A stretch of 64,000 bases of DNA from Tubulanus polymorphus (Eukaryota; Nemertea; Palaeonemertea; Tubulaniformes; Tubulanidae): assembly GCF_964204645.1 (NCBI RefSeq), contig NC_134025.1, positions 1,989,001-2,053,000 on the forward strand, given 5' to 3'. Within the stretch, counting starts at the first letter, position 1. Every line of letters begins with the position of its first letter. The position numbers were made by a program, and so were the translations under genes. Below the pieces are notes generated by a model. It searched no databases, was not told the origin of the DNA, and saw nothing but the letters and a program-made list of their open reading frames with translations. This document shows, piece after piece, positions 30,748-64,000 of the stretch.

Positions 30748-30882
30748 ACTTCCTGGTTTACAAGAAAATCCGGACGAGGACTTTGCAGCATACAGTCCAT
30801 TTCGCTCACCCTCGCTTGCCAGGGCCTGGTTGCCTGACAGGACAGCCCGACACGAATGGGAGTCATTGCGCATGGCGTGCGT

Positions 30883-30890
30883 CTTTTATA
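30883..30890 (-). promoter_or_regulatory. TATA-like element upstream of the acetyl-CoA synthetase start
   Basis: The minus strand reads TATAAAAG here, with a second TATAAAG about 15 nt further upstream, about 140 nt from the chosen ATG. If used, transcription would start downstream of the in-frame ATG at 30873 and favour the ATG at 30747. Confidence 0.4.
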
Positions 30891-31427
30891 AGACCACTTT
30901 ATACAAAGAACGCTCCAATGCCTTCTCGTTATTTCTTATTGGGCTAGTTACACTGCGTTTCTGCAGTGGTTCAGATATCAATTGCCGGTTTCAATACCGC
31001 CGTGCAAAATATGAAAGCTTCGGCTTCCGAGTTCGCGTCCAAACATTCTCTTTGCGTTAACTAAATTTTAATCATTCAAAGAAAGTAAAAATAAACACTT
31101 TGACATATATTTGTTAGAAGTTATCTTATATTTGTATTTGACAAATTTGAAGGACATCAGTAAGAAACATTTTTACATAAAAATATAAGAATCCATTTCA
31201 AAACGATTAATTGATAAATTTGTGATCCTGCGCAGCTTGACAATTAAATGGTTATTTGGCTGATTCGGCTAAAAACCTGTCATTCAGCACTTCTTCAAGG
31301 TCACATATAATCTTACATAATTATATAATAAAATGTCTGTACAACGATTAATATCATTATATGATATAAAGAATAAATAATTCTATTATTTAAAGTGTCT
31401 ACAGTCATTTAGTTTGCTATAGCCTTA
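30891..31427. other. intergenic stretch between the synthetase and paraoxonase genes
   Basis: This is the promoter side of the synthetase and the downstream side of the paraoxonase gene. The plus-strand frames here (30720-30947 and 30830-31060) overlap exon 1 of the synthetase antisense or are AT-rich chance frames. Confidence 0.5.
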
Positions 31428-31594
31428 GGGATCATTCATTCATTACATACGCATAAAATTTGAATTTTTCAACCCCCCTCCCCCTCTGTAGGCGAAATCA
31501 ACCATTCTTTCATATTATACATTAAGCATTACAGTACGCAATTGCACTGACCCCTCCCCCTCCCCTAATGCGTACGTAATAAATGAATGACCCC
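31428..31594. mobile_element. 167-bp MITE with about 27-bp TIRs and likely TA target duplication
   Basis: The left terminus TAGGGATCATTCATTCATT (from about 31426) is mirrored at the right by AATGAATGACCCCCTA (to about 31597). The arms extend inward to TACGCAT and ATGCGTA with about four mismatches. A TA flanks both ends, as in Tc1/mariner-type insertions. The interior carries two C-rich runs (CCCCCCTCCCC and CCCCTCCCCCTCCCC) and no open frame. It sits about 300 nt beyond the paraoxonase stop codon. Confidence 0.6.
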
Positions 31595-31896
31595 CTATTG
31601 ATCCAGATCAAAAGAAATAGAATCTTAAAAATAAAACGGTTTTTTCTCGCAACAATTATACAAGGGTGGATAATGAAGTCTAAGCATTTAATGTCATTTT
31701 ATCTTTACAAGATTATATCAAATGAATGAAATTTTCATTGGGAAAAATTCTGATTAAAAATCAAATTGTAATTACATCTCAAATAATGCTGCGGGGCAGA
31801 CGATAATTAGAGGCTCTGTGGTAAACGCTGTATAAAACTGATATCTAGCTGATATGAAGCAGGTTTAATCGAATTTTAATCAATCAAAATCACCAC

Positions 31897-39579: not shown

Positions 39580-42500
39580 TCAAGGAAATGTTCGTTCGGC
39601 AGCTGTAAAACAGAGAAAAAAATATATCCGTTATTCACATGTTCTTCACATTCAAGTCAAAGCGTTTTTAGCAAATGTGCTATTTTCAAAAAGCAGCGAT
39701 TAGAAAATCAGCATTTTCAATGTGAAACAATATATAAACTAACCGCCACACGTTTCCAATTGTAATTCATCGATCAAAGCTGGTAATTTATCCGTATCAT
39801 TCACTCGAAATACGAACTGTCGCGTTGAAGCTATATTGTTGAGTTCTTCATTGCTCACTTCGTCTCCGATACCGACTGCGAACAGTTTTATACCGACTTG
39901 TTTCGTAAATCTCGCCTGTTTCCTCGTGTACGCTCGGTTTTGTGATTTACCATCTGTTATTACGATTCCTATTTTCGGCATTTTACCATCCCGAGCTCCA
40001 TTCGCTTCTCTGAAACTGTATCGTCTGGCAATTCGTAACGCATCGCCGATATTCGTGTCGCCTCCAGACTGTTCGATTCTGGAAATCGCTGCAACTGCTC
40101 CATTCTCGTCAGCGATGTATGAATCCAAATTGAACTGCACTCGGGCATAGGTTCCGAACGTCAGCACAGCAACTCGGGTTCCACCCGATCCTATTTTGAA
40201 TTTTTTCACTAGTTTCTTCAGGAAGTCCAACTGTTTGGTGAAATCCTTCGGCCAAATACTGCTCGATGCGTCTAACATAACTACAACATCGGCGTGTGGT
40301 GTATCGCACTTCCTATGAGCTGAAAATACATAACAATTTAAACCCGAGATCTTTTTACAGAACGATGTTATCAATTCTGAAAATATTCACACGAGTTTCT
40401 TACCAGCTGCGTGATCAGGTTCATCATCTAAAATCATATAAAACAATGCGACGTTAGATACGAGCTGATCAGTCTATATATAGATTCATAACGTATTGAG
40501 ATCTGAATGTTACCTCGGCAAGTTATCTGCGAAAGTCTTGCTTTTAATTGAGGCAGATCCGAGAATCTCGACACTGTGAATACGTTCTCTCCCAGAGGCC
40601 AAGAAGCGATCGAATCTAATTCTATTTTGTCGACTTTTGGACCGATTCCGACTGTCATCACGGTCACTCCGTTCTTCCTCAGTTTACGCGCTTCCAGAGC
40701 CGTTTCCGAACGATCTGCTGATTTTCCGTCAGTGAAAATGACGACAATCTTTTCGGCGTCTTTTCGCTGGTTTCCCTCCTCACCAAACCCCCTTGAATCT
40801 ATAAATCTAAGCGCACGTGCTGTATTTGTGTTGCCTCGGATTTTCGTGATATTTTTTAACGCTGTTTGTACGTCAGACTTGTGTTGATATTGTTGCAGCG
40901 ATATCGCCGATCGAGCCCATGTACTAAATGTGACTACACCTATTCTCGTTTTGGTTGGAGCTATTCTAAATTCATTGACGACACTCTTCACGAAATCGAC
41001 CATTTTGCTAAAGTCTCCCACGTGAATACTATTTGAAGAATCGAGCGCGAATATAACATCAGTTGGTTTTGTTTTGCACGCTGGAATCAAACAATTCATT
41101 ATTGATACGATGAGTTTAGAAAACATAACGACGCACATGAGAATGAAATACGTTAATCGCAAATCAACTTAGGTTTAGAACATGGTAAATCATATAAGAT
41201 TAAAACCCACTGTATACAAATCAAAAGGTTAAAACGAAATCTATCAATCAAGAGATACAATGAAAAAAAGACATGAGGAATCGAGTAAATTTGTAGAACA
41301 CCCCAGGGATTTAATCAAGTATCAGTAAATTGTTCACACCTGTAGATAGCTTCTAGAAAGAGTCCGAAATAAATTTTGATTTAATTCTCGATTGATAGAT
41401 TTTGTTTTGATCTCTAAATTTGTATAATCTATTTTCCACTTCTGAGTACGCGGGCTAGTAGTTTCGATTGCTATAGGATGTGATTAAAAGCATGTGTTGA
41501 ACACTTACTGATGTTACTATCATCATTGACGTAAGTCGGAACTGTCGTCATAGGTCGATCTGTTCCCGTTGGAGAAACTGAAATTTTAATGTTAGATTAC
41601 AAATACCGATTACTAACAGACCACTTTATTCCGTTATATCCGTTCTTTATTATTATTCCGCTTAGCATTAGATTTTATCTCTAGCACAAGACTTCATGAA
41701 AGGAAGCTACATGGCTTCATCAGAAAAGCATCCACTTTTTTCAACTTGACCTGTTATTTTCATACAGTTCTCACATGGTAAATCAACATCGATTCTTTTG
41801 AACGATTGAAATCTAGGATACGATTTTGTCATCTATCCAAACTTATATGTAATCGCATTTTGGCATCGAACCAAAGACAACAATTATTGAAAGCAATCAA
41901 GGCATTCTGTAATCTAGAAATAACTTCCAGCAACAAACATTGAATCGGTGAGAAATGACTTAAAGAGCATCACACCTCTGATCTGAAACTATTTCTGGGT
42001 GAATGAATTGGGTAAATGATTCGATGCCAACCAATCAACATTTTTGATCAGATAACTTTAAAGAAGATAATTGCCATTAAAAAAGAAAAACAAAGAAGCT
42101 ACTTCTTACCAGCGCACGATTTGTATCCAAGTTCTTGTTGGATTTGATCAAGTTTCTGGAAATCATTGACCATGAATACGTATGACTTTGATCTAGCGAT
42201 GTTTCTCAATTCACTGATTTCCACGTATTTTCCGACACCGACTGCGAATACGACTATTCCCGCTTTCTTCGCCCTAAGAGCTTCGGTCTTAGTCCACGAC
42301 GGTTCCTGCGAGTTGCCATCAGTGATAACTATAGCTACTTTCGGGATATTTTTACGGGCCTTTCCAGGCGCCAATACCCGCGTGCGCGCTAGTTTCAATG
42401 CATCAGAGGTATTGGTATGACCAGTTCTCTGTTTTATCCTGCCCAATGCTTTAATTACGTCGTCACGAGTCGAATATTTGGCCAAGTCGAAGTGTAATTT

Positions 42501-44063
42501 AGCATCTGTACTAAATGTTATAACTGAAACTCTTTTTGCTTCGGGCCCGACTTGCATGTTCTGGATCATATGTTTGACGAAATCCACCTGTCTGGTGAAG
42601 TTTGCCGCTAATATGCTCGTCGATTCATCCAGAATGAACACGATATCTGCCTGGCGACATATTTCTTCCCGATTGCTCCGACCGTTGGCAACCTAGTGAA
42701 TGAAAATCTGGTTTACTCGAAATGTTTGGTAAAGTTCGTACTACTATTCTAACTATTCTGTAATGGTATTTCATTTTTAAACGAATAAAGCATGTTAAAT
42801 TACTAATGGATATATAATCGTCTAAATTTCAATACTTTTTTTGTTTCGTACGATGTTGGATGTGTTTTTAATGGTGTAATTGGTTATCAAGTCGCTACTC
42901 CGCTCATGTCTAGACGGGCGAGCACTCGCCTCCTGTTCACTCATCAGTAAATCTTAGACACCGCATAATATATAAGGTTATGCACTCTTATTTGTTCATT
43001 ATCAAAACAGAAAACAAGAGAATCAGATCTTACAACCTTTTTTTAGAAACATTACGACTAGTGATAATGATAGCGCGTTATTCGAAATATATAAATCTCA
43101 ATAAATCTTTTTTTCGAAATTACTTCTCATCGGGAATAGAACCACTTTCACGCAGTAAACCTTCAAAATTTGAAGAAAAGTCATATCTATGATATTCTTG
43201 ACAATTTGGAATGATGAGTTCAACTATTGAAAGCTATGGATGCCGCCATGCGTCAATGAAATATGTTACTGTCATCGCAAGTGTTGCCTCGGTCAATATT
43301 AGTTGCTGATGCGTTACGTGTTGGGCACATATTGTACTTCTGACAACAGATTGACGAGCTTCAAGCGAACTCAAAATCATTTACATCAAAATTCAGGAAT
43401 TAAACCAAAAGAAAAAAACTTGCTCTGCATATCACGTCCAATAGAAATATAAACCACAATTATCAAATATAGAATATAGAATCCGAAAAGTTTTCATGAG
43501 CTGATATTTCATTCGACGTTTCGACTTAATCCTCATGATTGATATATTCTACGATTTGGTATCTTCAGGAATACCAAAATAGTAGAAAATTAGTTCAATG
43601 AAACTTTTCGAACTACATTTTTTCTTTTGTTTTGATTTGATGTATGTTACAACACTGACTAAAAGTTCCATCAGGATTATTAACAAATATTATATACTAA
43701 TTTGATCCGATGATTCGAGTCTTCCCTACTAGTCTCATCTTCAAGGAAACGGAATCACATCTGTTACGAAATTATTGACTATTCTAGATAATAAATCGAA
43801 GACAAATCCTGATTTTATGGTTTTGTTATTTGAAATTAATAGAATCGAAATTACACGAAAACGAACACGATTTCAACACATGTCGCATTAGAGCTCGCAA
43901 AAAACTAATAAAACCAAACTGGTGAAAACGTAAAATAAATCGTAACAAAAACATAAACCGATCATTTCAAGAAATCAGTTATAATCAGTCGAATTTCACT
44001 TACCCCAACTGTGACCAGAATCAGAACGATAAAACTGGTGAAAGTCATTTCGACGCTTTTCAT
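39580..44063 (-). CDS. secreted protein of three von Willebrand factor A domains (7 exons, 633 aa)
   Basis: Exons, minus, high to low: 44063-44004, 42692-42110, 41577-41509, 41080-40514, 40427-40404, 40319-39744, 39602-39580; 1902 nt, all phases consistent. Exon 1 is a signal peptide ending in LVTVG. Exons 2, 4 and 6 each encode one complete VWA domain (about residues 25-212, 238-425, 436-624). Each has an intact metal-binding MIDAS set: DESTS/HTNTSD/TDGNS, DSSNS/NTNTAR/TDGKS, DASSS/DTNIGD/TDGKS. Exons 3 and 5 are short Thr/Asp-rich linkers. All junctions from exon 2 onward are phase 1, the exon-shuffling pattern. Each domain is bracketed by a Cys near both ends. This is the architecture of matrilin- or collagen VI-like matrix adaptors, but without coiled coil, EGF or collagen stretch. 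The final exon adds only AAERTFP. If the donor GTTAGT (39743) is not used, the protein ends 8 codons earlier at TAG 39739-39741. Confidence 0.9.
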
Positions 44064-45894: not shown

Positions 45895-48800
45895 ATGAGT
45901 GGGTCTTTAAACCACCATCTTCTAGGACTGGTTTTATGGATAATTGTGACCCTGCAATCGACTAGTGCTCAGTAAGTAAATTCATTTAAATTCATTGAAA
46001 AAATGACGTATTTAAAAGTCGTGAAAACTTATCAAAGTTGTACGACTTTTTATCTTAATCAAAAACCATACTATTGCACTATGAGAACGTTTAGAATATG
46101 TTATTGTTCATGGACTTTCTGGATTATTTGATATGAAATTGGAAATTATTACCTGATGCAACATTTCTATTCCGAATGAATTAAAAATACATTTTTTAAA
46201 CTAACCAGTGGTGGTGATGATATATTGAATAAGTGAAACAGAAAGTATATGAGAATTCAAAATCGCAAACGTAAGAATAATGATACATCCAGTATGGCGG
46301 CATCCTGATGACAATTAAAGTCTTGTCGCTCCCAGAAACAATTTAATGTAAATTAATTTTCTATTTATGATTATCTTTTTGAAAAATGAAATAATTTCTA
46401 TTCATGTTTGTCAGCTGTAGTCTTATTCCCGTGAAAATGAACAAACATTCGTACGATAAGAACGTGTATTTTCTGTTGTGATTTTGAGAAAGATTTTGAA
46501 CAAAAGATTTAATCGACGCGTCATTATAACATAATGAGAATGAAAAATGATGTGTGCAATTCATTACAGCAGTTTCAACTGCACCGGCTTGCGTAAGCGC
46601 TGTATCCATCATAGACTACTTTCATTACAGAGATATCTTTCTTGTCTGGTAAATATACAGGTCCAATAAGCCCCGTTCACGTTATTTCTATTCACAAACA
46701 CAGACATGGTCCACTCTAAAATTTATAATCGACAATTTAGGTCTGCCAAATTGGTCCGTTACAAATAAGAACAGAATTCGTTAGTGTGATCGCTTCGTCC
46801 GTTCTAAATTGGATCGCACTGAATTTAGAACGTTTCAAATAACGCAGTTTGGACGCGGCTAATATCTCATTTATATTTGTACCCATTTCAAGAATTTTTC
46901 ACCAATCTTGAAATTGATTGAGCGAACAATCACGGATTATAACTATATATATATATATATATGTATTTATTTTTTCATTATAAAGGACCCAACACAGATG
47001 TAATGTAACCAAAATCGAACGAACAGAAAAGCGAGTAAAATGCTCAGAATATCTAACGCAGACGATAAGCGGTTACGATTTGGACCAAGATGCCACGGTT
47101 GGATTACAAGGTCTCACTAACCAAGAATTACAGTCTAAGATTGCTGAATGGATTGAACATAAAGACGATCCAAATATGCCAATGTGCATCTTTGCCAGGT
47201 AAACTCAAATGCTGCATCTTTTTATAATCTATAAGTAAATCCCACTTCTCGTTGAATTACATGTTTATTACGCTTGAATTGCTGTTCACTATCAGGACAC
47301 AAATGTTTCTTTCTTCAGAAAACAGCCAATAGTGACAGAAGAATGCTGTTTGGGCTACACAGGAACCAACTGTGACATCCGTAAGTTGGACTGAATATGA
47401 ATGAAAATGACATGAATTAATCGATTTCTATATTGTATCATTATATTTCTTTGATAATTTTAGCAAAATGTGATAAAGACTGTCTAAACGGCGGAACGTG
47501 TTTATCTCTGGTTGAAGGATGCAAGTGTCCTACCGGATTTGATGGTCGCGCATGTGAAGATGACCTCTCTTGTAAGGATTAGAAAACTTTATCTACTACA
47601 GAAATAAAGGTTTCATATACATTACATATTTTCATTGTATTTTAGTAATCACGTCAACCAAGAAATTCTGTTATAAAGGACACAAATGCAATTTCGGTCG
47701 AGCTAAAGGTTTCGAAGTGAATGTTACCGAATACTCAGACTGTTGTCAAAATGGAGGTGTATCTTGGGGCCAGTCTGGAGATTGTCAGCTATGCTCAGAT
47801 AGCAGCAACCAAACAGGAGGTATATCAAATCAATCAATTTTTCAACAACATTCGATCAACAATTATTTTTTGGAAGACGTGAATTTATAAAGCACGATAC
47901 GCAAAATATCTTCGTACGAAATATCTATCTTTTGTATTAAAACGTTTTTGTACGTATGAATGTTACAGTGATTGAAAAGATTAAAAAGCTGAATTTCGCA
48001 ACCTGTGCCAGTTATGGAAAAACTAACTACAGATCCTTTGACGGACTTACATACCAATTCGGCGGTAACTGCAAATACACAATGGTAGCACCTCCGAATG
48101 ATCTATGGTATTGTAAAATGAGGTTGAAGGATGCTGAACACGCGTCCAGATTGACAAAGGTAAAATAATCAGGTTTTCGTTACGTTATCTGAATATCGAA
48201 GGAAAATCATTAATACAATTATCAATAATCGCAGGAAATCGAATGCAAATTTGATGAAGTTAACATTTGGGTTATGCAAGAAGACAGTATAAAATATGGA
48301 CCGAGTAGAAACAATCTTCAATCCGTAACTGGAATCACCATAACGAACGGTTTTGCCGAAAGTGGAGTTATCATAGAAAAACTCGGTGATTTCTACCGTT
48401 TGGAAAGTGAGATCAGAGGTATAAGAATCAAGTGGACCAAAGATACTGCATATTTCACTGTAGAAAAGGGAATTCACCACGAAGGGAACTTGAAGGGTCT
48501 TTGCGGTGATTATAACAGCAATCCGTCAGATGATATGGCTGGGTTCAGTAACCCCGCTCAGTTCGGTAATAGTTATAAGGAGCCAGGTGTAAGTATATTA
48601 ATTATTGATTCCATGTTCACATAATAGAATAAACATTTACAACGATACCGATTGATGTTTTAGTGTTTGAATGCTGGTACAGTTGGTTTTACTTGCGAAT
48701 CGGATGCCGATGAAAGGGAAGCGGAAATGAAATGTTTACCGATCAAAACTAAGATATTTTCTGCTTGTCAGTCAGCCGTGAGTAACCATAATTATCCAAC

Positions 48801-51800
48801 ATCCCTAACGTTAAAGAACGACGCATGTTCATCTGGCCAAGAACATGCAAGTCTGTAGCCAGGAACCTTCAAGTGTAATTCTTTAATCTAAAAAAGGAAA
48901 GCTTGTCCTCCAAAAGCAGGACAAAACAAGAAAAAGAGCTAACCCTTTATAGCCCATCAATAACTCTTATCCTAGCTAGGCCCACCTCGAAGTTTAGAAG
49001 TTTGTTTTGTATGAGGCCTGAGATCGTTACAACGCCATGTCTTATATAATCCTTAGGTTGATCTGGAAATGTGGTTCAAGAATTGCGTCAATGATTACTG
49101 TTCAGCGCTAGCTGATGTTGATTACCCGGAAGGTAAAACGGCTGTGATTTGTACCACATTCGGCGCTCTGGCTCGGGAGTGTGCAGCGTCTTCAAGTGGA
49201 ACTATTCAGATATCGTGGAGAAAAGCTGATCTGTGTCGTAAGTCACTCGAACGTTTATCCTTAATTGTATTCTTCGAAGCGAATGAAATTAATTATAATC
49301 AAATATCTTTGCAGCGAGACAATGTCCCGACGGTATGGAGTACTCTGAACACATGCCATCGTGTCCGCGAACCTGTGCTAATCTCTATCAGATAATGTCC
49401 AGTGATTGTATCTCAAATGTTGTTCCCGGATGCCGGTGTAAAACTGGAACTTTCCTCTCGGAAGGCAACTGTACTGCAGCTGAAAAATGTCCATGTTATT
49501 ATCAGAAAAAGAAATACGAATCTGGAGAATTCGTAATGAACGAATGTAATAAATGGTAAATAGTTATAGTGTTGGTGACTGTATGAATACGTGTGAAATC
49601 AAATGAAAATGATTGCCGAATGTAATTTGAATATATTTCTTTAGCTCTTGTAATGCTGGTCGGTGGAGCTGTACGAAGAAACGATGCCCGAAAAAATGTA
49701 AAATTCTAAACGATCACGTTTTCCCGTTCAGCGGTAATTCGTACACGATGAAAGGTGGTGATTGTGAATTTGTGGCGATTGAGGTAAGACATTGACCCCA
49801 AGCTGCAAGCAGTATAAAAAAGTATTACATCAAAATCTGTGTTACAGATAATCCTACAATCATCGTGTATTATTATATCGTGACAAGCTGTACTTTGTCT
49901 AATGTCCTTTTTAGACCGATTCCAGCTTTGAATGACTTTTTTATGCGGTCCTGGTCGCGTTTCTGTGATTTTGAATGGTTATGATACAGTCCTCTAGCTA
50001 GCTTTAAATCTCCATTCACATTTAAGTTCGTTTTAGTGCATTTTATTGTTAATAATCTTAAACCGGCACTATTTCTGTATAGTCTTGTCATAATCATTTC
50101 CTAAGGTCTAGTATAAATTCTGCAGTATTCTTAACCCTATGAAGCAGTTTAAAATGAACTTCCTATTAGTGCAGTCTAGTCTTCAGTTACCGCCTCAGGC
50201 CGATCAGGTTTTTGCGTTCACAACTGGTTTGATTTTCATGATCTTATGTTATATTGCAAAACAAACATCCACGGAGAAAAACGCTGGTCTACCAGTAGAA
50301 TAGCCCGTGGATCATAAGATTAGAATCCATTTTATAGAAATTTAAAAGATAAGACACAAAATTTATTTATAAAAAATAAGATCAAAACACACGACTTTTC
50401 TGGCTCTCTCTAGAGACCATCATTAGCCGATAGCTTTAAGCTTTTTTCGCCCTTTTAGCGCCATATAAGAGTAAGATCATTGATAAATCATTAAAATTCT
50501 TTTTAGCCAATGCTGAAATATGCGAATAGTTCAGATACACGAACTCAGCTTGAGGTAACAGTGTCCGGAGATTGTGCGAATGGACAGTTATATCAATGCG
50601 ACAAGAAAATAAACATCAAATCGAACAACGTAGCCATGTCCATCGAAAAGGATTGTGTACTGAAGGTTGAGGGTATTCAGCAAAGACTTCCATATCATAA
50701 CTCGGAAAAGGGAATCTACGTGAAGAAAGGAAACTCAATTTTTGCGATAATTAAAGTATTTGGTGCAGAAATATTGTATGATTGCAGAAAACGAATGCAC
50801 GTGATCCTCTCTCCGTTCTTCCTCAACAAAGTAAGAAAATAAAAACTAATCGGATGATTGATATGAGATGAATATAATAAACGGATGGAATAATAGCGAC
50901 AAATTTGCCGTAATTTTTTGTATAGATTCAAGGTATATGCGTAACAACTAATCCCGAAGGTCTACGATACGTGCCGAGAAATGAACAATTCCAAGATGGA
51001 GAAATGGCTTTCTTGAAAAGTTTTAGAAAACCAACCGCGTGTTTTGACAACGATAAACAAGTGGATCTCATAACCGAAGCTTGCATCAGCGACAAAAGCG
51101 TAAGTTGTTGTTTTAGATAAAACAGTTCGTATAATTTTGAGCCGAGAAGAAACACAATATCCGTGTACGATGATTATACGTGAGCAACGCCTGTTGATGT
51201 CTAATAATCTTTAGCCGAAACTTCGCTCAAATATATATACACTTCTATTCAAGAACTTTTCATTTTTTGGCTGAAGTATTTGTGAGATATCTCGCGTTTA
51301 ATTTGCAATCTTATTCAGATACGCGGTAGGCCTATATTGGTTTTTTTTCAATACCGTTTTAGCGCGAAACGGAAGCAAAAGAGAAATGTAAAATACTCGT
51401 TGATGAAAATGGGCCGTTTGCAGCTTGTAAGGAAGCCTTGTCTGAAGATCTATCGGTATATTACCAATACTGTCTCGATGATATCTGTCTATCATCGATT
51501 GACCAAGTAACGCAACGTAAAGCCCAGTGCGATGCGATCGCTAGTGCGTCGCAGGCATGTGCTAACGCAGGCGTCATCGTTAATTGGATAAAGACAAATG
51601 GCCTGGAGTTCTGTCGTAAGTTTTCACAATTCTAACTAGTTAAAACTGGAAATTTGGTTTGTAAGAAACAACTATACGAAAGTAAATTTTGCGTTTTTAG
51701 TAAATGTTTATAGCTGCGATGGTGGCTCGAGCTACGACGAGTGTTCCGATTGGTGTCGAACTGATTGCCGAGATTTGCAAGTCTCGCCTGTATGTGACAA

Positions 51801-54800
51801 GTCCAAGAAACACTGTGCTCCCGGGTGCGGTTGTAAAGGAAAGAAACTGCGAGATGATCATGGCGATTGTGTGGATGTGAATGAATGTACCTGTTATAAT
51901 CAATTCGACATGATCAGTCCCATTAAGAATGCCGGTGATGAAATCAAGAGAGGCTGCGCTCAATGGTAAGTCAATAATCGCATAAATCAGCCATGGATAT
52001 CACCGGTATACAATATCGATGAAATGTTTGCTACTTTAAAAAAGTATATTCATCTTATTTTGGAAATAATTCTATTCATGAAAATTATTATCAGTAATGA
52101 ATTAAATATCCCATATTTCTAAAGGCAGTTGGAGAAATGTTCAACATCATTAATGTCTACTCTGAGTGTTCATATTGTTTCGGTTCAACTTTGTAAAAAG
52201 ATTATATGAAAATAAAAAAATCAAATCACATCACATCATGTCAGTCATCATTATTGCTTTTAGTACGTGTGCGAATGGTACATTCATCTGTGGAAAGGAG
52301 ACATGCGCAGAAAAAGTAATCTGTCCTAAGAATCAGGTGTATAGTCAAACTAGGCCATGCTTGAAACGTTGCAGCGACGCCGGTTTCCAGTCGACATGCG
52401 TTAGTCGAGGAGAAGGATGTGGCTGTCCAGCCGACAAAGTTCTATCACCGAGCGTAAGTATCAAAGATACATTTAACTGAAATATGAATTTATCTTAAAA
52501 CAAAACTTAATCTCATTGAATTTCGTGCTGATTGATTTATCAGGGTCAATGCGTCGACCAAAGCGAATGTCCGTGCGTGATGGGAGACAAATTCTATCCA
52601 TCGAATTCCACGATGAAAGACATGTGCAAGACATTGTAAGTTCATTTGAAATAGATCCCTCGAAGTTGTTGATATTGCTTGTAAAGTCGATAGTTTAATA
52701 CATCGATATCTTTCGAGTATAATTCACCGTTATGAAAAATGTGTTTTTTTCAGCGTTTGTGAAAACAGTGTTTGGGTGCAGAAGGGCGATCCAAACGTAG
52801 AATGCCCGGCGGTGTGTGTAGCTACTGGGGATCCTCATTACAGGACATTCGATAAGAAAGACTACGATTTACAAGCCCATTGTAAGTTAACGCTGGTCAG
52901 AGACGTAAATCAAGTATTCGACGTAACCGCAGAAAATGTAGAATGCGGAACATCTGGAGTCGCGTGTACAAAATCAGTTGTGATTTCATATAGAAATCAC
53001 ATCGTTCATTTGTTGCGCGGAAAAGACCTGCAAGTTGATAATGCGACCATTGACAAGAATGCAGCTGAATTCGAGTTAGACGGCATAAAGATCCAAAATA
53101 TAGGTCTTTTCAAATCGGTGATACTCGAAAAAGAAGGCTTTCAATTGATGTGGGATGGTGGCACTAGGGTGTACACATTCCTCGATCCAAAATGGAAAAA
53201 CAAAGTTGAAGGTCTCTGTGGAAACTATAACAATGATATAGATGACGAATTTCTAACCTCATCGGGAACGATTGAAACATCGATATCAGCATTTGGTGAA
53301 TCTTGGGCATTAGATTGTGTCGTGAAATCGCCGGAAACAACTTTGAAAGCGGATGCTGGGCCTTGTGAAGGAGTAAGTTTGGGATACTTAATTTTTTTTT
53401 TGTAAACATAGACCCGTTCGATTAGATAAATGTATAGTTTTGTCTAAAATTATAACGAATGACACTTTCTTTCCTAGTTTGAACATAGGCAAACATGGGC
53501 GATGGAAGCTTGTAGTATTCTTACAGATACGCGTGGACCATTCGCCGAATGCATCAAGCGAATCTCAGGGGTCGCTAAGTACCATAGAAATTGTGAACAT
53601 GATGCCTGTCGATGTGACAAAGGTGGCGATTGTGAATGTTTGTGTACCTCAATTGCCGATATGGCTGAAATGTGTAACAAAAATGGTGTTTACGTGAAAT
53701 GGAGAACTCAACGACTTTGCCGTAAGTAGAACATTGTTATTTTCCCATCGTAAGTTATAAATCATCAGTTACAGCGATACATGTGTAATTCATTCGCATT
53801 GACGCATTTCTCTTTTTTTTCAGCTATAATGTGCGAAGGCGGATCTCAATATTCACCTTGCGGATCTCCATGTGCGCAGACCTGTAAGAATATTGGTGAA
53901 GAGCAAGAAGAGCATTGCAAGATATCATCGTGTGTAGAAGGTTGTTTTTGTCCTCCAGGAACAGTTAACAATGGTGAGTGTAGCGCGTGAAAATGATATC
54001 GCGCCAATTCTGAGAATGACCACAGCTGACCAACTCATTTTATATATATTCATAGATGGAGTTTGTATACCGGCTGATAGCTGTCCGTGTTATATTAACG
54101 GAAATGCCTATCCCGCAGGCACCACTCTAATGGACAATTGCCAAAACTGGTAAGCTAAGTTTTATCCTGGCGCATTGCGAGATAAGCCAGAAATCAGAAA
54201 AAGTTTTCAGTTCGATAATCTTCTGTATTAAACATTCAATTACAGTACCTGCAAAAATGGAGAATTCACTTGCGTAGGAAGTGAATGTATGAATAAGACA
54301 TGTTCACCTCACGAATTTGCTTGCGACAATGGGAATTGTATCAATGGAGGTTGGAAATGCGATGGTGCTAATGATTGTGGAGACTATTCTGACGAGTCTG
54401 ACTGTGAAGGTATTTGTTCAATTAGAGACGTGATTGAAAACGAGCTTGATTTTGCAACGGAATGAAAAATGGAATAAAAAAATGATAATAATCATTTGAT
54501 CGAATAGCCTTGTCTACCCTAATTGTCAATATGATCAAGCGAAAATAGGATTCAATTCAAAAAATGAATCACCTTCACTAGCTCAATATCTTCGTTTACA
54601 AAATACATTCGTTTGCAATACATTGAAACATTAGAAAACTCCAAATTTGAATAATAACATAACTGATGAATATCGATGTAAATATGTACACATTGATGTG
54701 AATATTGCGTTTTCTTCTAATAGTTTCCTCTTATCTCTTCATTGTAAATATCCCAATGATATTATAATTACGGAGCGTATAAAGAATATAATTCATTGAG

Positions 54801-57800
54801 ATAGCTTCCATTTTGAGTTCCCAATATGTGCTACATGTTACCTGTATTAATTTTCAGTCACTTGCGATCCCGATCAGTTTCAATGTGTTAGAGATAGAAA
54901 ATGTATACCGAAGATACACGTTTGTGATCACGTAGGCGATTGTCTTGACAATTCGGACGAATATCAAAACTGCTGTAAGTTTTTTTTTCCGTAAATCTCT
55001 TCAAATCTTTAACCTTAAGGGTTCGTGGGTTAGGGCATTGGTTTTTATGTACGTATGTCTTTTTTCGTATAGCGTACTGCCACAAAGGACAATTCAGATG
55101 TGACAATCAAAAGTGTATTTCAAGCAAGCTGAAATGTGATGGAGCATACGATTGTGGAAATGGGGATACGAGTGATGAAAAGAATTGCACGGGTATGTAT
55201 TTTTAATAGCGATGATTTAAAATGTATCTACCAAAAGTTGGTCTTTGGAATAAGTTCCATGGTTAGACGAGAAGATACACAATATCCGCGTATGATGATG
55301 ACGAAAAAAATCCCGCAATAACAAAGCCAAAATTGAAAAATTCTATATCAGAATGATTGTATTTGAGGAACGTCGCTCCTCAAATACAATCATTCTGATA
55401 TAGAATTTTTCAATTTTGGCTTTGTTATTGTGGGATTTCTCTCGTCAAGTTCAATGGTAGTCACGATGTTTTTCAATGTAATTCTTAAGTTGACGAATGT
55501 ATCAGCAAAGATGTATTCAAATGTACGAACGGAGACTGTAAGCCCAGTTCGCAAAAATGTGATGGACATGATGATTGTGGCGATGGCTCGGATGAAGTTG
55601 GTTGTGCAACTACTAGTAAGCATATAGTTTGCTCTGTCCAGATCGGACCTACTCAACACCGAATACTAATCACTTGTTTTACGTCTTTTACAATACGTTT
55701 TTTTAATAGTGTCTTCGATGTCTACAATGATACCAACAACTACCAGCGCAACTTGCGAACCTGGTGACTTTGTTTGCGATAACGGTAACTGCCTGAAACA
55801 GACAAACGGGTCGTTAATTTGCAATAAAATCAACGACTGTGGCGACGGAACAGATGAAAATAACTGTGGTAAGTGTTCTTCGATAAGTGAACGTTGATAA
55901 CGATTTTGACGATTTTTTAAAGTTTATCCAACAAAACGGGATACGAATTAATCACCATAAGGAAAAGAGCCTCCTGTAAATATATATGACACATTTTTCC
56001 AAATGATTTGAAAAAATAGATAATGATACTTAACACGTTGCCAATATTACAATACGGGTAAAATGACCAGTCTCAGAACTAGGATAACAATCTGAAATCT
56101 TCGCCACCTTCCGAAAATCGCTTTCAAGCTTTCCTGTATTCGACCATGATCCGTGGTTAGACTAAAACTGAGTAAATCGGTTTTTCTTTTTCTTCAAAGG
56201 AACTTCTCCAACCACAACTATAATGGGCTGTCTCAATGGAACATTTATCTGTTATTCAAATAACGAATGTATTAACAAGACCAAACTTTGTGATGGAACA
56301 CCAGATTGCCCTGATGGTTCTGATGAAAGCAGATGCTCAACCACAGTAACAATCACCACGATTAGTATGTACCGATTAATGTATAAATTATTCCGTACTG
56401 TTCAGTTTATATATGACAATTCAATTCAATCTAATTCAATTTAATAAAACTCTTTGTTATACGGTTATATCCATACGCATTGAGGTTACAGACTACAAAG
56501 AAAGATATGATATGATATGATATTCTAAATTTATGTTCAGGTCCATGTTCGAGCCAGGAAGGCATGGATGACGAAGCTGTCATTCCACCGGGTTACATCC
56601 AATCAACTGATGGCATACCAGAAAACTTGCGTCCGAGTGCTTCAACGCCATTTGTATCTAACAGTAGCACGGTCACTGCCAGGATTATTTTAGATACGAT
56701 AACTCCTATCGAACTTGGTACTATAAAACCAAAAGACCCCCAGAATATAATAGGATATCTAGTTGAAATCAAAAGAAATCCTGGTAGCGCGTTTGAACCT
56801 GTTGGCCCTGTAAGTAGAAATTTCTTATACCGACAATTATTTGATGATACTTTTAAGAGACAACGACGTAATAATAAAAAAATTAAGAGATTGGAGGAAA
56901 AATGTGAAAATATCAGCAATGATGTAATTCTAGGGAGACACCAGCACACCAAGAAATGTCGATGGCAACTTTGACCCAAATATCCCGGTCATATTCATGC
57001 CTGGCACAAACGCTGTAGAAATTGAAATAACCTTTATCAAGTCACAGGAAACAGGAAAACCAATATCAACGAAATTGGAACTATTTGCCTGCTATCATGG
57101 AGGTAAAAATACACTTATTATTCCCCTTGGCTTAAACGCTAACCCTAATAAAAAACAATCATTTTCACAAAACTTATCAAATTTAATTCAAAGGCACACC
57201 AAGAATCAGCACTACTACCATTGCACCAAGCACGCTATCGGCAACACAACCCCCAGTAACACCAGGTGTCACTCAACCACCGGTAACACCAGGAGTCACT
57301 CAACCACCAGTTACACCAGGTGTCACTCAACCACCAGTTACACCTGGAGTCACTCAACCACCAGTAACACCAGGAGTCACTCAACCTCCAGTAACACCAG
57401 GTGTCACTCAACCACCGGTAACACCAGGAGTCACTCAACCACCAGTAACACCAGGTGTCACTCAACCACCAGTTACACCTGGAGTCACTCAACCACCAGT
57501 TACACCAGGAGTCACTAAACCACCAGTAACACCAGGCATCACTCAACCACCAGTCACACCAGGTGTCACTCAACCACCAGTAACACCAGGCGTCACTCAA
57601 CCACCAGTCACACCAGGAGTCACTCAACCACCGGTAACACCAGGAGTCACACAACCACCAGTAACACCAAGAGTCACACAACCACCAGTAACACCAGGCG
57701 TCACTCAACCACCAGTCACACCAGGAGTCACTCAACCACCAGTCACACCAGGTGTCACTCAACCACCAGTAACACCAGGCGTCACTCAACCACCAGTCAC

Positions 57801-60800
57801 ACCAGGAGTCACTCAACCACCGGTAACACCAGGAGTCACACAACCACCAGTAACACCAGGAGTCACTCAACCACCAGTAACACCAGGAGTCACACAACCT
57901 CCAGTAACACCAGGAGTCACTCAACCACCAGTTACACCAGGAGTCACTCAACCACCAGTAACACCAGGAGTCACCCAACCACCAGTAACACCAGGAGTCA
58001 CCCAACCTCCAGTAACACCAGGAGTCACCCAACCTCCAGTAACACCAGGTGTCACCCAACCTCCAGTTACACCAGGAGTCACTCAACCTCCAGTAACACC
58101 AGGAGTCACTCAACCTCCAGTAACACCAGGAGTCACCCAACCTCCAGTTACACCAGGTGTCACCCAACCTCCAGTTACACCAGGAGTCTCTCAACCACCA
58201 GTAACACCAGGAGTCACACAACCTCCAGTAACACCAGGAGTCACCCAACCTCCAGTTACACCAGGAGTCACTCAACCTCCAGTAACACCAGGCGTCACTC
58301 AACCACCAATTACACCAGGAGTCACTCAACCACCAGTAACACCAGGAGTCACCCAACCTCCAGTAACACCAGGAGTCACCCAACCTCCAGTAACACCAGG
58401 AGTCACCCAACCTCCAGTAACACCAGGTGTCACCCAACCACCAGTAACACCAGGAGTCACTAAACCACCAGTCACACCAGGAGTCACTCAACCACCAGTT
58501 ACACCTGGTGTCACTCAACCACCAGTAACACCTGGTGTCACTCAACCACCAGTAACACCAGGAGTCACTCAACCACCAGTCACACCTGGTGTCACTCAAC
58601 CACCAGTAACACCAGGAGTCACCCAACCACCAGTAACACCAGGAGTCACTCAACCTCCAGTAACACCAGGAGTCACTCAACCACCAGTAACACCAGGAGT
58701 CACTCAACCTCCAGTTACACCAGGCGTCACCCAACCTCCAGTAACACCAGGTGTCACTCAACCACCAGTAACACCAGGAGTCACTCAACCACCAGTTACA
58801 CCAGGAGTCACTCAACCACCAGTAACACCAGGAGTCACTCAACCACCAGTAACACCAGGAGTCACTCAACCTCCAGTAACACCAGGTGTCACTCAACCAC
58901 CAGTAACACCAGGTGTCACTCAACCACCAGTAACACCTGGTGTCACTCAACCACCAGTAACACCTGGAGTCACTCAACCACCAGTAACACCAGGTGTCAC
59001 TCAACCTCCAGTAACACCAGGTGTCACTCAACCAACAGTAACACCAGGTGTCACTCAACCACCAGTTACACCTGGAGTCACTCAACCACCAGTAACACCT
59101 GGTGTCACTCAACCACCAGTTACACCTGGAGTCACTCAACCTCCAGTAACACCAGGTGTCACTCAACCACCAGTTACACCAGGAGTCACTCAACCACCAG
59201 TTACACCAGGAGTCACTCAACCACCAGTAACACCAGGAGTCACTCAACCACCAGTAACACCAGGAGTCACTCAACCTCCAGTAACACCAGGAGTCACTCA
59301 ACCACCAGTAACACCAGGAGTCACTCAACCACCAGTAACACCAGGAGTCACCCAACCTCCAGTAACACCAGGAGTCACTCAACCACCAGTAACACCAGGA
59401 GTCACTCAACCACCAGTAACACCAGGAATCACTCAACCACCAGTAACACCAGGAGTCACTCAACCACCAGTAACACCGGGTGTCACTCAACCACCAGTAA
59501 CACCGGGTGTCACTCAACCACCAGTAACACCGGGTGTCACTCAACCACCAGTAACACCAGGAGTCACCCAACCTCCAGTAACACCGGGTGTCACTCAACC
59601 ACCAGTAACACCGGGAGTCACCCAACCTCCAGTAACACCGGGAGTCACTCAACCTCCAGTAACACCAGGTGTCACTCAACCACCAGTTACACCTGGAGTC
59701 ACTCAACCACCAGTAACACCAGGAGTCACTCAACCACCAGTAACACCAGGAATCACTCAACCACCAGTAACACCAGGAGTCACTCAACCACCAGTAACAC
59801 CGGGTGTCACTCAACCACCAGTAACACCAGGAGTCACCCAACCTCCAGTAACACCAGGTGTCACTCAACCACCAGTAACACCAGGAGTAACCCAACCTCC
59901 AGTAACACCAGGAGTCACCCAACCTCCAGTAACACCAGGAGTCACTCAACCTCCAGTAACACCAGGAGTCACTCAACCTCCAGTAACACCAGGAGTCACT
60001 CAACCACCAGTTACACCAGGAGTCACTAAACCACCAGTAACACCAGGTGTCACTCAACCACCAGTAACACCAGGAGTCACTCAACCACCAGTAACACCAG
60101 GAGTCACTCAACCACCAGTAACACCAGGAGTCACTCAACCACCAGTAACACCAGGAGTCACTCAACCACCAGTAACACCAGGAGTCACTCAACCACCAGT
60201 AACACCAGGAGTCACTCAACCACCAGTAACACCAGGAGTCACCCAACCTCCAGTAACACCAGGTGTCACTAAACCACCAGTAACACCAGGAGTCACTCAA
60301 CCACCAGTTACACCTGGAGTCACTCAACCACCGGTAACACCAGGTCTTACTCAACCACCAGTAACACCAGGCGTCACCCAACCTCCAGTAACACCAGGAG
60401 TCACTAGACCACCAGTTACACCTGGAGTCACTCAACCACCAGTCACACCAGGAGTCACTAGACCACCAGTAACACCAGGAGTCACTCAACCACCAGTTAC
60501 ACCAGGAGTCACTCAACCACCAGTAACACCAGGAGTCACTCAACCACCAGTTACACCTGGAGTCACTCAACCACCAGTAACACCAGGTCTTACTCAACCA
60601 CCGGTTACACCAGGCGTCACCCAACCTCCAGTAACACCAGGTGTCACTCAACCACCAGTTACACCTGGAGTCACTCAACCACCAGTCACACCCGGAGTCA
60701 CTCAACCACCAGTAACACCAGGAGTCACTCAACCACCAGTAACACCAGGAGTCACTCAACCACCAGTAACACCAGGAGTCACTCAACCACCAGTAACACC

Positions 60801-63800
60801 AGGAGTCACCCAACCTCCAGTAACACCAGGTGTCACTAAACCACCAGTAACACCAGGAGTCACTCAACCACCAGTTACACCTGGAGTCACTCAACCACCG
60901 GTAACACCAGGTCTTACTCAACCACCAGTTACACCAGGCGTCACCCAACCTCCAGTAACACCAGGAGTCACTAGACCACCAGTTACACCTGGAGTCACTC
61001 AACCACCAGTCACACCAGGAGTCACTCAACCACCAGTAACACCAGGAGTCACTCAACCACCAGTAACACCAGGAGTCACTCAACCACCAGTAACACCAGG
61101 AGTCACTCAACCACCAGTTACACCTGGAGTCACTCAACCACCAGTAACACCAGGTCTTACTCAACCACTGGTTACACCAGGCGTCACCCAACCTCCAGTA
61201 ACACCAGGTGTCACTCAACCACCTGTAACACCTGGAGTCACTCAACCACCAGTCACACCCGGAGTCACTCAACCACCAGTAACACCAGGAGTCACTCAAC
61301 CACCAGTAACACCAGGAGTCACTCAACCACCAGTAACACCAGGAGTCACTCAACCACCAGTAACACCAGGAGTCACCCAACCTCCAGTAACACCAGGTGT
61401 CACTAAACCACCAGTAACACCAGGAGTCACTCAACCACCAGTTACACCTGGAGTCACTCAACCACCGGTAACACCAGGCGTCACCCAACCTCCAGTAACA
61501 CCAGGAGTCACTCAACCACCAGTTACACCTGGAGTCACTCAACCACCAGTCACACCAGGAGTCACTCGACCACCAGTAACACCAGGAGTCACTCAACCAC
61601 CAGTAACACCAGGAGTCACTCAACCACCAGTAACACCAGGAGTCACTCAACCACCAGTAACACCAGGAGTCACTCAACCACCAGTAACACCAGGAGTCAC
61701 TCAACCACCAGTTACACCAGGTGTCACTCAACCACCAGTAACACCAGGAGTCACTCAACCACCAGTAACACCAGGAGTCACTCAACCACCAGTAACACCA
61801 GGAGTCACTCAACCACCAGTCACACCCGGAGTCACTCAACCACCAGTAACACCAGGAGTCACTCAACCACCAGTAACACCAGGAGTCACTCAACCACCGG
61901 TAACACCAGGTCTTACTCAACCACCAGTTACACCAGGCGTCACCCAACCTCCAGTAACACCAGGAGTCACTAGACCACCAGTTACACCTGGAGTCACTCA
62001 ACCACCAGTAACACCAGGTCTTACTCAACCACCGGTTACACCAGGCGTCACCCAACCTCCAGTAACACCAGGTGTCACTCAACCACCAGTTACACCTGGA
62101 GTCACTCAACCACCAGTCACACCAGGAGTCACTCAACCACCAGTTACACCTGGAGTCACTCAACCACCAGTAACACCAGGTCTTACTCAACCACCGGTTA
62201 CACCAGGTGTCACTCAACCACCAGTTACACCTGGAGTCACTCAACCACCAGTCACACCCGGAGTCACTCAACCACCAGTAACACCAGGTCTTACTCAACC
62301 ACCAGTTACACCAGGCGTCACCCAACCTCCAGTAACACCAGGTGTCACTCAACCACCAGTAACACCAGGAGTCACTCAACCACCTGTAACACCAGGAGTC
62401 ACTCAAACACCGGTAACACCAGGTCTTACTCAACCACCAGTTACACCAGTAGTCACTCAACCACCAGTAACACCAGGTCTTACTCAACCACCAGTTACAC
62501 CAGGAGTCACTCAACCACCAGTAACACCAGGTCTTACTCAACCACCGGTTACACCAGGCGTCACCCAACCTCCAGTAACACCAGGTGTCACTCAACCACC
62601 TGTAACACCTGGAGTCACTCAACCACCAGTCACACCCGGAGTCACTCAACCACCAGTAACACCAGGAGTCACTCAACCACCAGTAACACCAGGAGTCACT
62701 CAACCACCAGTAACACCAGGAGTCACTCAACCACCAGTAACACCAGGAGTCACCCAACCTCCAGTAACACCAGGTGTCACTAAACCACCAGTAACACCAG
62801 GAGTCACTCAACCACCAGTTACACCTGGAGTCACTCAACCACCGGTAACACCAGGCGTCACCCAACCTCCAGTAACACCAGGAGTCACTCAACCACCAGT
62901 TACACCTGGAGTCACTCAACCACCAGTCACACCAGGAGTCACTCGACCACCAGTAACACCAGGAGTCACTCAACCACCAGTAACACCAGGAGTCACTCAA
63001 CCACCAGTAACACCAGGAGTCACTCAACCACCAGTAACACCAGGAGTCACTCAACCACCAGTAACACCAGGAGTCACTCAACCACCAGTTACACCAGGTG
63101 TCACTCAACCACCAGTAACACCAGGAGTCACTCAACCACCAGTAACACCAGGAGTCACTCAACCACCAGTAACACCAGGAGTCACTCAACCACCAGTCAC
63201 ACCCGGAGTCACTCAACCACCAGTAACACCAGGAGTCACTCAACCACCAGTAACACCAGGAGTCACTCAACCACCGGTAACACCAGGTCTTACTCAACCA
63301 CCAGTTACACCAGGCGTCACCCAACCTCCAGTAACACCAGGAGTCACTAGACCACCAGTTACACCTGGAGTCACTCAACCACCAGTAACACCAGGTCTTA
63401 CTCAACCACCGGTTACACCAGGCGTCACCCAACCTCCAGTAACACCAGGTGTCACTCAACCACCAGTTACACCTGGAGTCACTCAACCACCAGTCACACC
63501 AGGAGTCACTCAACCACCAGTTACACCTGGAGTCACTCAACCACCAGTAACACCAGGTCTTACTCAACCACCGGTTACACCAGGTGTCACTCAACCACCA
63601 GTTACACCTGGAGTCACTCAACCACCAGTCACACCCGGAGTCACTCAACCACCAGTAACACCAGGTCTTACTCAACCACCAGTTACACCAGGCGTCACCC
63701 AACCTCCAGTAACACCAGGTGTCACTCAACCACCAGTAACACCAGGAGTCACTCAACCACCTGTAACACCAGGAGTCACTCAAACACCGGTAACACCAGG

Positions 63801-64000
63801 TCTTACTCAACCACCAGTTACACCAGTAGTCACTCAACCACCAGTAACACCAGGTCTTACTCAACCACCAGTTACACCAGGAGTCACTCAACCACCAGTA
63901 ACACCAGGAGTCACTCAACCACCGGTAACACCAGGAGTCACTCAAACACCGGTAACACCAGGAGTCACTCAACCACCGGTAACACCAGGAGTCACTCAAC
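45895..64000 (+). CDS. giant secreted SCO-spondin/gel-forming-mucin-like protein (30 exons, runs off window)
   Basis: Exons: 45895-45971, 46998-47198, 47319-47380, 47464-47571, 47646-47819, 47969-48159, 48235-48588, 48664-48777, 49057-49237, 49315-49555, 49645-49783, 50507-50830, 50926-51099, 51363-51615, 51701-51965, 52264-52453, 52544-52635, 52754-53372, 53478-53721, 53824-53973, 54056-54149, 54246-54409, 54858-54974, 55073-55192, 55490-55615, 55710-55868, 56200-56364, 56541-56809, 56934-57102, 57194->64000. All are in phase, at least 4114 aa. Order: signal peptide ([17 protein letters not shown]), EMI-like (ends [13 protein letters not shown]), EGF (CLNGGTC...[13 protein letters not shown]), TB-like ([19 protein letters not shown]), VWD1-C8-TIL, VWD2-C8-TIL-TIL, VWD3-C8-TIL, six LDLa, a beta-rich module, then the PPVTPGVTQ array. 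The N-terminal half follows SCO-spondin, but the thrombospondin region is replaced by a mucin array. Probably a polymerising, O-glycosylated gel or adhesive component (inference). Confidence 0.9.
46944..46962. repeat. (AT)n microsatellite in intron 1 of the mucin-like gene
   Basis: About nine AT dinucleotides, 35 nt upstream of the exon 2 acceptor. Confidence 0.9.
47969..49783 (+). other. first VWD-C8-TIL assembly (exons 6-11)
   Basis: VWD1 (exons 6-7) begins [19 protein letters not shown], has [13 protein letters not shown], and ends with [17 protein letters not shown], keeping the GLCG motif. C8 (exons 8-9) has eight-cysteine spacing with FKNCVNDYC and ends DLC. TIL (exons 10-11) has [21 protein letters not shown] and CPCYY. 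The start of the next VWD ([13 protein letters not shown]) is in exon 11. Confidence 0.88.
49645..52453 (+). other. second, divergent VWD-C8-TIL assembly (exons 11-16)
   Basis: VWD2 (exons 11-13) has [20 protein letters not shown] and [19 protein letters not shown], but the place where GLCGNYN is expected reads [13 protein letters not shown]8 (exon 14) is intact with the [11 protein letters not shown] signature. TIL follows (exon 15: [23 protein letters not shown]), and a further TIL-type cysteine module starts in exon 16 ([11 protein letters not shown]...[10 protein letters not shown]). Confidence 0.82.
52544..54149 (+). other. third VWD-C8-TIL assembly (exons 17-21)
   Basis: Exon 17 completes the second TIL ([10 protein letters not shown]). 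Exon 18, 619 nt, holds all of VWD3 with the canonical [16 protein letters not shown] start and [16 protein letters not shown] end. Exon 19 is C8, exons 20-21 TIL ([26 protein letters not shown]). Confidence 0.88.
54246..56364 (+). other. six LDL-receptor class A repeats, one per exon (exons 22-27)
   Basis: Each exon carries one six-cysteine LDLa repeat with the calcium-binding C-D-G-x-x-D-C-x-D-x-S/T-D-E core: [93 protein letters not shown]. Exons 23-27 are 1-1 phase symmetrical, fitting exon duplication. Repeats 5 and 6 are preceded by short Thr-rich linkers ([17 protein letters not shown]), and repeat 6 is followed by another (TTVTITT), so the mucin-like character begins here. Confidence 0.92.
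55300..55446. repeat. 147-bp near-perfect hairpin (palindromic element) in an LDLa intron
   Basis: Arms of about 70 nt are centred on 55373 with a 7-nt loop (ACGTCGC). The inner 50+ nt, ending TTGAGGA and mirrored by TCCTCAA, match perfectly. The outer part (GACGAAAAAAATCCCGCAAT versus the complement of ATTGTGGGATTTCTCTCGTC) has a few transitions. It lies in the intron between LDLa repeats 3 and 4 and ends 43 nt before the exon 25 acceptor, so it could fold in the pre-mRNA close to the splice site. It may be a foldback MITE. Confidence 0.9.
56541..57102 (+). other. unassigned beta-rich module between LDLa repeats and mucin array (exons 28-29)
   Basis: About 145 residues spanning [20 protein letters not shown] near the start to LFACYHGG at the end. 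After the first Cys-rich turn it reads as alternating hydrophobic strands ([40 protein letters not shown]) with a single late cysteine. The pattern resembles the discoidin-like or jelly-roll modules that precede Thr/Pro repeats in invertebrate matrix proteins. I cannot name a family. Confidence 0.5.
57250..64000 (+). repeat. 27-bp coding minisatellite: at least 250 nonapeptide repeats (mucin PTS domain)
   Basis: From CCC at 57250, every 27 bp encodes PPVTPGVTQ. 6751 bp equals 250 units plus one base, so no unit has a length change. Amino-acid variants are few: Q to K or R, V to I or L, P to T or L, G to R or V, T to S. Third-position changes are common (CCA/CCT, GTA/GTT/GTC, GGA/GGT/GGC, ACT/ACC). 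Each unit has two Thr and three Pro, suited to dense O-glycosylation. The array is one exon and is cut by the window edge. Because 27 is divisible by three, the reverse strand shows an open frame of over 2200 codons (W/C/Y/S/D-rich), which is an artefact of the repeat. Confidence 0.97.
61140..63893 (+). repeat. tandem 1377-bp higher-order duplication inside the nonapeptide array
   Basis: Block 61140-62516 recurs almost base for base as 62517-63893. Rare variants fall at the same offset of 1377 bp (51 units): GTCACTCGACC at 61561 and 62938, GTCACTAAACC at 61399 and 62776, ACACCAGTAGTCAC at 62443 and 63820. A T/C difference (61169 versus 62546) is one of very few mismatches. The copies diverge outside these limits. 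A shorter 567-bp spacing (21 units) links the GTCACTAAACC variants at 60265, 60832 and 61399. Confidence 0.85.

Follow-up and report, generated by a model that had tools for sequence, protein, structure and literature searches.

A giant 27-bp repeat exon in the nemertean Tubulanus polymorphus probably belongs to a mucin gene of the SCO-spondin family

Introduction

A 64,000-nucleotide stretch of the Tubulanus polymorphus genome (Nemertea; contig NC_134025.1, forward-strand positions 1,989,001 to 2,053,000), called the window here, ends in a tandem array of 27-bp units that lies behind exons for cysteine-rich modules. Is this array (array A) translated, and to what kind of gene (gene A) does it belong? 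A preliminary description of the window reported at least 250 units without indel in one exon, saw in them a mucin-type repeat joined to an SCO-spondin-like N-terminus in a secreted product, and, finding no thrombospondin repeats behind that N-terminus, took the whole for a non-standard hybrid family. The analysis reported here extends into the flanking contig and the genome assembly (268 Mb, 77 contigs). Among phylum markers looked for in the assembly, COX1, sought as a sign of a mitochondrial contig, gave no match, and neither the hemerythrin family nor, in a search without a positive control, the molluscan haemocyanin family was found. Coordinates above 64,000 lie in the flanking contig and are numbered on from the window; the window is G000:C1:1989001-2053000, and contig positions are obtained by adding 1,989,000.

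Gel-forming mucins carry single giant Ser/Thr/Pro exons. SCO-spondin (SSPO) is the protein of the vertebrate Reissner's fibre and has an F5/8C domain. The SCO-spondin layout runs from an EMI-like start through three N-terminal VWD-TIL units and an LDLa cluster to TSP1/TIL repeats and a C-terminal cystine knot (PMC8487547).

Results and discussion

Predicted exons form one continuous, stop-free coding path on the forward strand from 46,986 to 131,609, and we consider it likely, judging from its domain order, that this path, gene A, encodes a giant mucin of the SCO-spondin family with array A as one of four giant repeat exons; that the product is secreted, as proposed earlier, is probable. The chain comes from a simple home-made gene finder that combines codon usage with splice-site weights and enforces exon phases. 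In order, it predicts three VWD-C8-TIL assemblies, LDLa domains, diverged F5/8C modules, the repeat exons, TSP1/TIL domains and a cystine knot, giving a product of 21,553 aa (2.16 MDa unglycosylated), 71% of which falls within the four giant exons. Unusual in gene A are the scale and number of these Ser/Thr/Pro exons; the family itself, assigned by domain order within the VWD/mucin superfamily, appears to be a known one, because TSP1, TIL and cystine-knot domains lie downstream and a second gene, gene B, repeats the layout.

Tandem Repeats Finder reports 57247-64000 as a single array of period 27 with 250.1 copies and 0% indels, and the repeats persist past the window end to window-equivalent 70,229. 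In a fixed 27-bp register they make 479 consecutive units without indel (250 complete units inside the window), the most divergent being 6 of 27 bases off consensus. All lie in the first giant Ser/Thr/Pro exon of gene A, a predicted phase 1-1 exon of ~13 kb that spans 57194 to the window end at 64000 and on to 70309 (G000:C1:2059309), between a phase 1 acceptor at 57194 (ttcaaag/GCACACC) and a phase 1 donor at 70309 (CACCAG/gtatct). The earlier picture of a mucin-type repeat of at least 250 indel-free units in one exon is thus borne out, and the stop or frameshift that had been named as its refutation does not occur in the assembly, where the frame is open over the whole exon. The 479 units comprise 83 DNA variants but only 20 peptides, and 406 of them read exactly QPPVTPGVT. 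The unit pattern is private to gene A, which holds 853 of the 853 exact matches genome-wide. Array A also contains two exact copies of a 49-unit block, offset from each other by 51 units.

The array A exon is coding, translated now or until recently. Differences from the consensus number 72, 17 and 620 at codon positions 1, 2 and 3 (709 in total; 87% at position 3), a bias with z of ~30 against one third, which is a guide only, as the units are non-independent. They divide into 619 synonymous and 90 nonsynonymous differences, a ratio of nonsynonymous to synonymous that is 0.065 of the genetic-code expectation, or 0.12 when each distinct unit is counted once. We read array A as translated because synonymous differences dominate and are concentrated at codon position 3.

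The exons in front of array A follow the SCO-spondin order. Cys-rich, EMI-like exons (46986-47380) precede an EGF-like exon (47464-47571, phase 1-1), and then come the D1 (VWD1-C8-TIL, 47969-49555), D2 (VWD2-C8-TIL and a further TIL, 49645-52635) and D3 (VWD3-C8-TIL, 52754-54149) assemblies. Six LDLa exons with phase 1 boundaries occupy 54246-56364 (54246-54409, 54858-54974, 55073-55192, 55490-55615, 55710-55868 and 56200-56364; Pfam Ldl_recept_a, six stretches, E 3e-35). Pfam finds VWD three times, C8 three times, TIL four times and LDLa six times in this head, all well above cut-off; D1 has PDB matches to Mucin-2 and VWF, D2 has PDB matches too, and together the D assemblies match Mucin-2, Mucin-5 and VWF, SSPO being absent among the PDB matches. 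The proposed SCO-spondin-like N-terminus is therefore upheld, with three VWD-C8-TIL assemblies followed by six LDLa. Of the modules listed for it, the three VWD and six LDLa stand, EGF is sub-threshold (Pfam hEGF/EGF, E 5e-5 / 1e-3), and neither EMI nor TB is detected by Pfam in the gene A N-terminus, although the EMI-typical tail CC-x-G-[YW]-x-G-x-x-C, read from the sequence as CCxGYxGxxC in gene A, is carried by both genes.

Between the LDLa exons and array A stands a diverged F5/8 type C module (56541-57102) of two exons, 56541-56809 (phase 1-0) and 56934-57102 (phase 0-1), which was recognised from aligned copies of the pattern PCxxxxGMxD...RP...C, a sister copy reaching E 2e-4 with Pfam F5_F8_type_C, below threshold. 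F5/8C scores below the Pfam cut-off (E 2e-4 to 1e-3), yet it appears in each of the three modules of gene A that were searched. For a second F5/8C type, a profile search of the PDB returns factor VIII C2; the 'GMxD' type has no match in that search, and its assignment to F5/8C consequently rests on the sub-threshold Pfam scores.

On the 3' side of array A the exon model continues with an F5/8C-like module and three LDLa exons, and then with three to four tandem 2.9-kb duplicates, 98-99% identical, each composed of F5/8C, LDLa, F5/8C and a short array. The remaining giant exons are array B (86,208 to ~102,098, ~16 kb), with ~585 units of the same 9-mer as array A, and arrays C (104,392-114,195, ~10 kb) and D (116,335 to ~123,250, ~7 kb), both of STGPTSSF-type repeats. 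Arrays A and B have no block of at least 8 units in common by block comparison. The Ser/Thr/Pro arrays of gene A are inserted as phase 1-1 exons. Beyond them lie LDLa, TIL, TSP1 and TIL exons with an (SGPGGATP)32 insertion, in which Pfam finds nine TSP1_spondin and five TIL stretches well above cut-off, TSP1 alternating with TIL. The preliminary description proposed looking for a C-terminus in the flanking sequence, and a predicted cystine-knot exon is found there at 131,298-131,609. Cys_knot scores E 0.002, below the curated Pfam cut-off, in the C-termini of both genes, and the gene A knot gives weak matches to Norrin and Gremlin in a PDB profile search. Its best phmmer matches, plant leucine-rich-repeat kinases, had no passing stretch and were dropped as chance.

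Gene B (134,971-206,294) begins ~3 kb downstream of gene A and matches it in exon order and phases. Its head has three VWD-C8-TIL assemblies and six LDLa followed by F5/8C-like modules, among them a two-exon module repeated ~14 times in tandem, with near-identical units of 1,188 bp, at 145,388-161,395; in one F5/8C-like module of gene B, Pfam found no F5/8C match. Giant TPGA/TPGV arrays, LDLa, TIL, nine TSP1, an (SGPGGATP)213 array and a cystine knot complete the gene, Pfam detecting nine TSP1_spondin and four TIL stretches in the tail. Synonymous differences outnumber nonsynonymous ones in its repeats as well (262 vs 8, 388 vs 15 and 748 vs 54). By repeating the link from head through arrays to tail, gene B gives independent support for gene A as one gene, and, as a comparison of predicted structures, it is the best available evidence that array A belongs to one.

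The two genes are 45% identical in VWD3 and 35-36% in the cystine knot. The SGPGGATP arrays (125,578-126,354 in gene A; 195,155-200,234 in gene B) occupy the corresponding exon position and have an identical 24-bp consensus. They are 93-95% identical in DNA although VWD3 is only 45% identical in protein, which suggests conversion between the paralogues as a possible event at this array. In a genome search, a related cystine knot turned up at no locus besides these two. Outside the pair, the loci closest in VWD3 (on contigs C4, C1 and C7) are, by eye, of the BMPER/crossveinless type (VWC-VWD-C8-TIL) and were rejected as further SCO-spondins. A tandem cluster of VWD exons at G000:C4:19935518-20932837, 26-28% identical to the VWD3 described here, is another expanded VWD family.

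Several points weigh against gene A as a mucin of this family. The signal-peptide exon was not found by the exon chain model, the donor of array D, the fourth repeat exon, is weak, and the model was drawn from genome sequence alone, some of its small exons surely being wrong. Array copy numbers hinge on correct assembly of long arrays, and O-glycosylation and gel formation are expectations from sequence and family. In D3, alignment with VWF shows a retained counterpart of VWF Cys1099, and the stretch holding Cys1142 is missing. Of the two cysteines that link chains through D3 in VWF, one is thus absent, as is the CGLC pair, and multimerisation of the VWF kind may accordingly be weaker or take another form. 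In the VWF D3 sequence used for that alignment the cysteines fell at the expected numbers.

It is rather unlikely, but worth weighing, that two or more genes are involved, with an EMI-VWD-LDLa-mucin gene ending at stops at 70315 and an F5/8C/TSP1/cystine-knot gene downstream of it. The last unit of array A, QPPVTPGVT, is followed by QLVTPGVTEPTRIPFSS... and by those in-frame stops, 5 bp past the predicted donor; the linkage within gene A is predicted from the genome sequence; and in the limpet an N-terminal protein, P-vulgata_3, and a C-terminal one, P-vulgata_6, were published as distinct (PMC7333891). However, the phase-1 donor CACCAG/gtatct lies before these stops, and the exon that follows begins in phase 1 (predicted junction 70309-71107); gene B has the full set of parts again, from the N-terminus through to the cystine knot; and arrays of this kind would in any case interrupt transcripts assembled from short reads. 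The best phase-1 donors of arrays A, B and C are all CAG/gtat; for array B the chain model itself picked a poorer site.

The limpet pedal mucus proteins correspond to the two ends of gene A: P-vulgata_3 has three VWD, two C8, two TIL and five LDLa domains, and P-vulgata_6 has four TSP1 and a cystine knot (PMC7333891). Unlike the gene A product, each was published as a short protein in its own right, with no repeat array, and we suggest by analogy that they may be halves of one such gene. Spondin1 from the mucus of Cornu aspersum resembles spondin, has stretches rich in Ser and Thr, and was proposed to be a mucin (PMC10475054); these stretches are short, and giant exons are undescribed there. 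SCO-spondin-like mucus proteins are thus already on record in snail (PMC10475054) and limpet (PMC7333891).

It is unlikely that array A itself serves as an extensible, elastin-like spacer that carries few O-glycans. Its composition (P 33%, T 22%, V 21%, G 11%), with one Pro-Gly pair in each unit, would allow this, but roughly two Thr per nine residues stand near Pro, Q/K replace the hydrophobic VPGVG spacing, and the sister exons of gene A are rich in S/T/G/P (STGPTSSF) with little V. The hydrophobic VPGXG repeats of elastin-like proteins are not what is found in QPPVTPGVT; the likeness is confined to the P-G pair, and the two Thr near Pro would fit O-glycosylation at least as well.

We regard as very improbable the hybrid family of the preliminary description, in which an SCO-spondin head is grafted to a mucin tail outside SCO-spondin. 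The repeat exons, ~71% of the predicted protein, are indeed unlike the vertebrate SCO-spondin layout, but the thrombospondin repeats that were thought missing, nine TSP1_spondin stretches, lie 54-61 kb further on in gene A with five TIL stretches and the cystine knot, and these downstream domains together with gene B show SCO-spondin order, which contradicts the hybrid unless the genes prove separate. The impression arose because the window stops short of the thrombospondin and cystine-knot domains. SSPO and gene A share the three VWD-TIL units, the LDLa cluster, TSP1/TIL and the cystine knot; gene A differs in its four to five giant Ser/Thr/Pro exons among LDLa and F5/8C cassettes, its multiplied F5/8C and only nine TSP1, and in size (a predicted 21,553 aa against a 540-kDa SSPO precursor). 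With MUC2, MUC5AC, MUC5B and VWF it shares D1-D2-D3 assemblies and the cystine knot, and with the gel-forming mucins large Ser/Thr/Pro exons (arrays A-D); it has LDLa, F5/8C and TSP1 where those proteins carry CysD and a VWD4/VWC tail, and lacks their second D3 inter-chain cysteine and CGLC pair.

We give virtually no credence to array A as a non-coding intronic satellite, open by accident: a stop-free unit in tandem is open by construction, and the antisense frame is open too because such a unit is repeated, but the codon-position bias, the 619 synonymous against 90 nonsynonymous differences and the like pattern in gene B's different repeats reject it.

As a mucin of the SCO-spondin family, the gene A product would probably serve in mucus, glue or matrix and be O-glycosylated, by analogy with its relatives. 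Cystine knots would dimerise the protein ends covalently, as in VWF and gel-forming mucins, and D3 contacts through the retained Cys1099-equivalent would add further inter-chain links. The Thr/Ser/Pro arrays would carry dense O-glycans and form a stiff hydrated thread; an extended mucin-type chain measures roughly 0.2-0.25 nm per residue, and on that scale each monomer would have 3-4 micrometres of array. The F5/8C-LDLa cassettes that separate the arrays would act as spaced binding or cross-link points, like the CysD domains of MUC2/MUC5. Copy number would shift by unequal exchange of whole 27-bp units, in keeping with the exact 49-unit duplication; the reading frame would stay intact at every step, with selection preserving the peptide.

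More tentatively, and with somewhat less than even confidence, we propose that this tandem pair has come to supply the giant structural mucins of the animal. F5/8C-LDLa cassettes would stand in for CysD, and the repeat units would have been replaced separately in each gene (QPPVTPGVT vs TPGA) while the SGPGGATP array was kept nearly identical at its shared site. On this view SCO-spondin would form a single family with the mucins of mucus and adhesives, and published heads and tails would be gene halves. If the gene model is right, one of the largest mucins predicted comes from a gene of the SCO-spondin family, which supports the Reissner-fibre protein and invertebrate mucus mucins as branches of one family. 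The model could also explain transcriptome reports of heads (VWD-LDLa) and tails (TSP1-cystine knot) apart, perhaps because short reads cannot assemble the intervening arrays, and the pair would offer a natural experiment in which the mucin repeat unit changes and frame and framework stay.

Within gene A, an LDLa intron holds a dispersed repeat resembling a miniature inverted-repeat transposable element, with an internal inverted repeat (55260-55447; 104 genome matches, most to 55260-55447). The minus strand adjoining gene A carries three exons with VWA-like open frames (39739-42692; matrilin/collagen type, by eye). Further away on the same strand are paraoxonase-like exons at 32-33.6 kb (by eye; within a stretch at 26257-34000) and, at 26-30 kb, acetyl-CoA-synthetase-like exons (by eye) with a minisatellite at 27743-28399.
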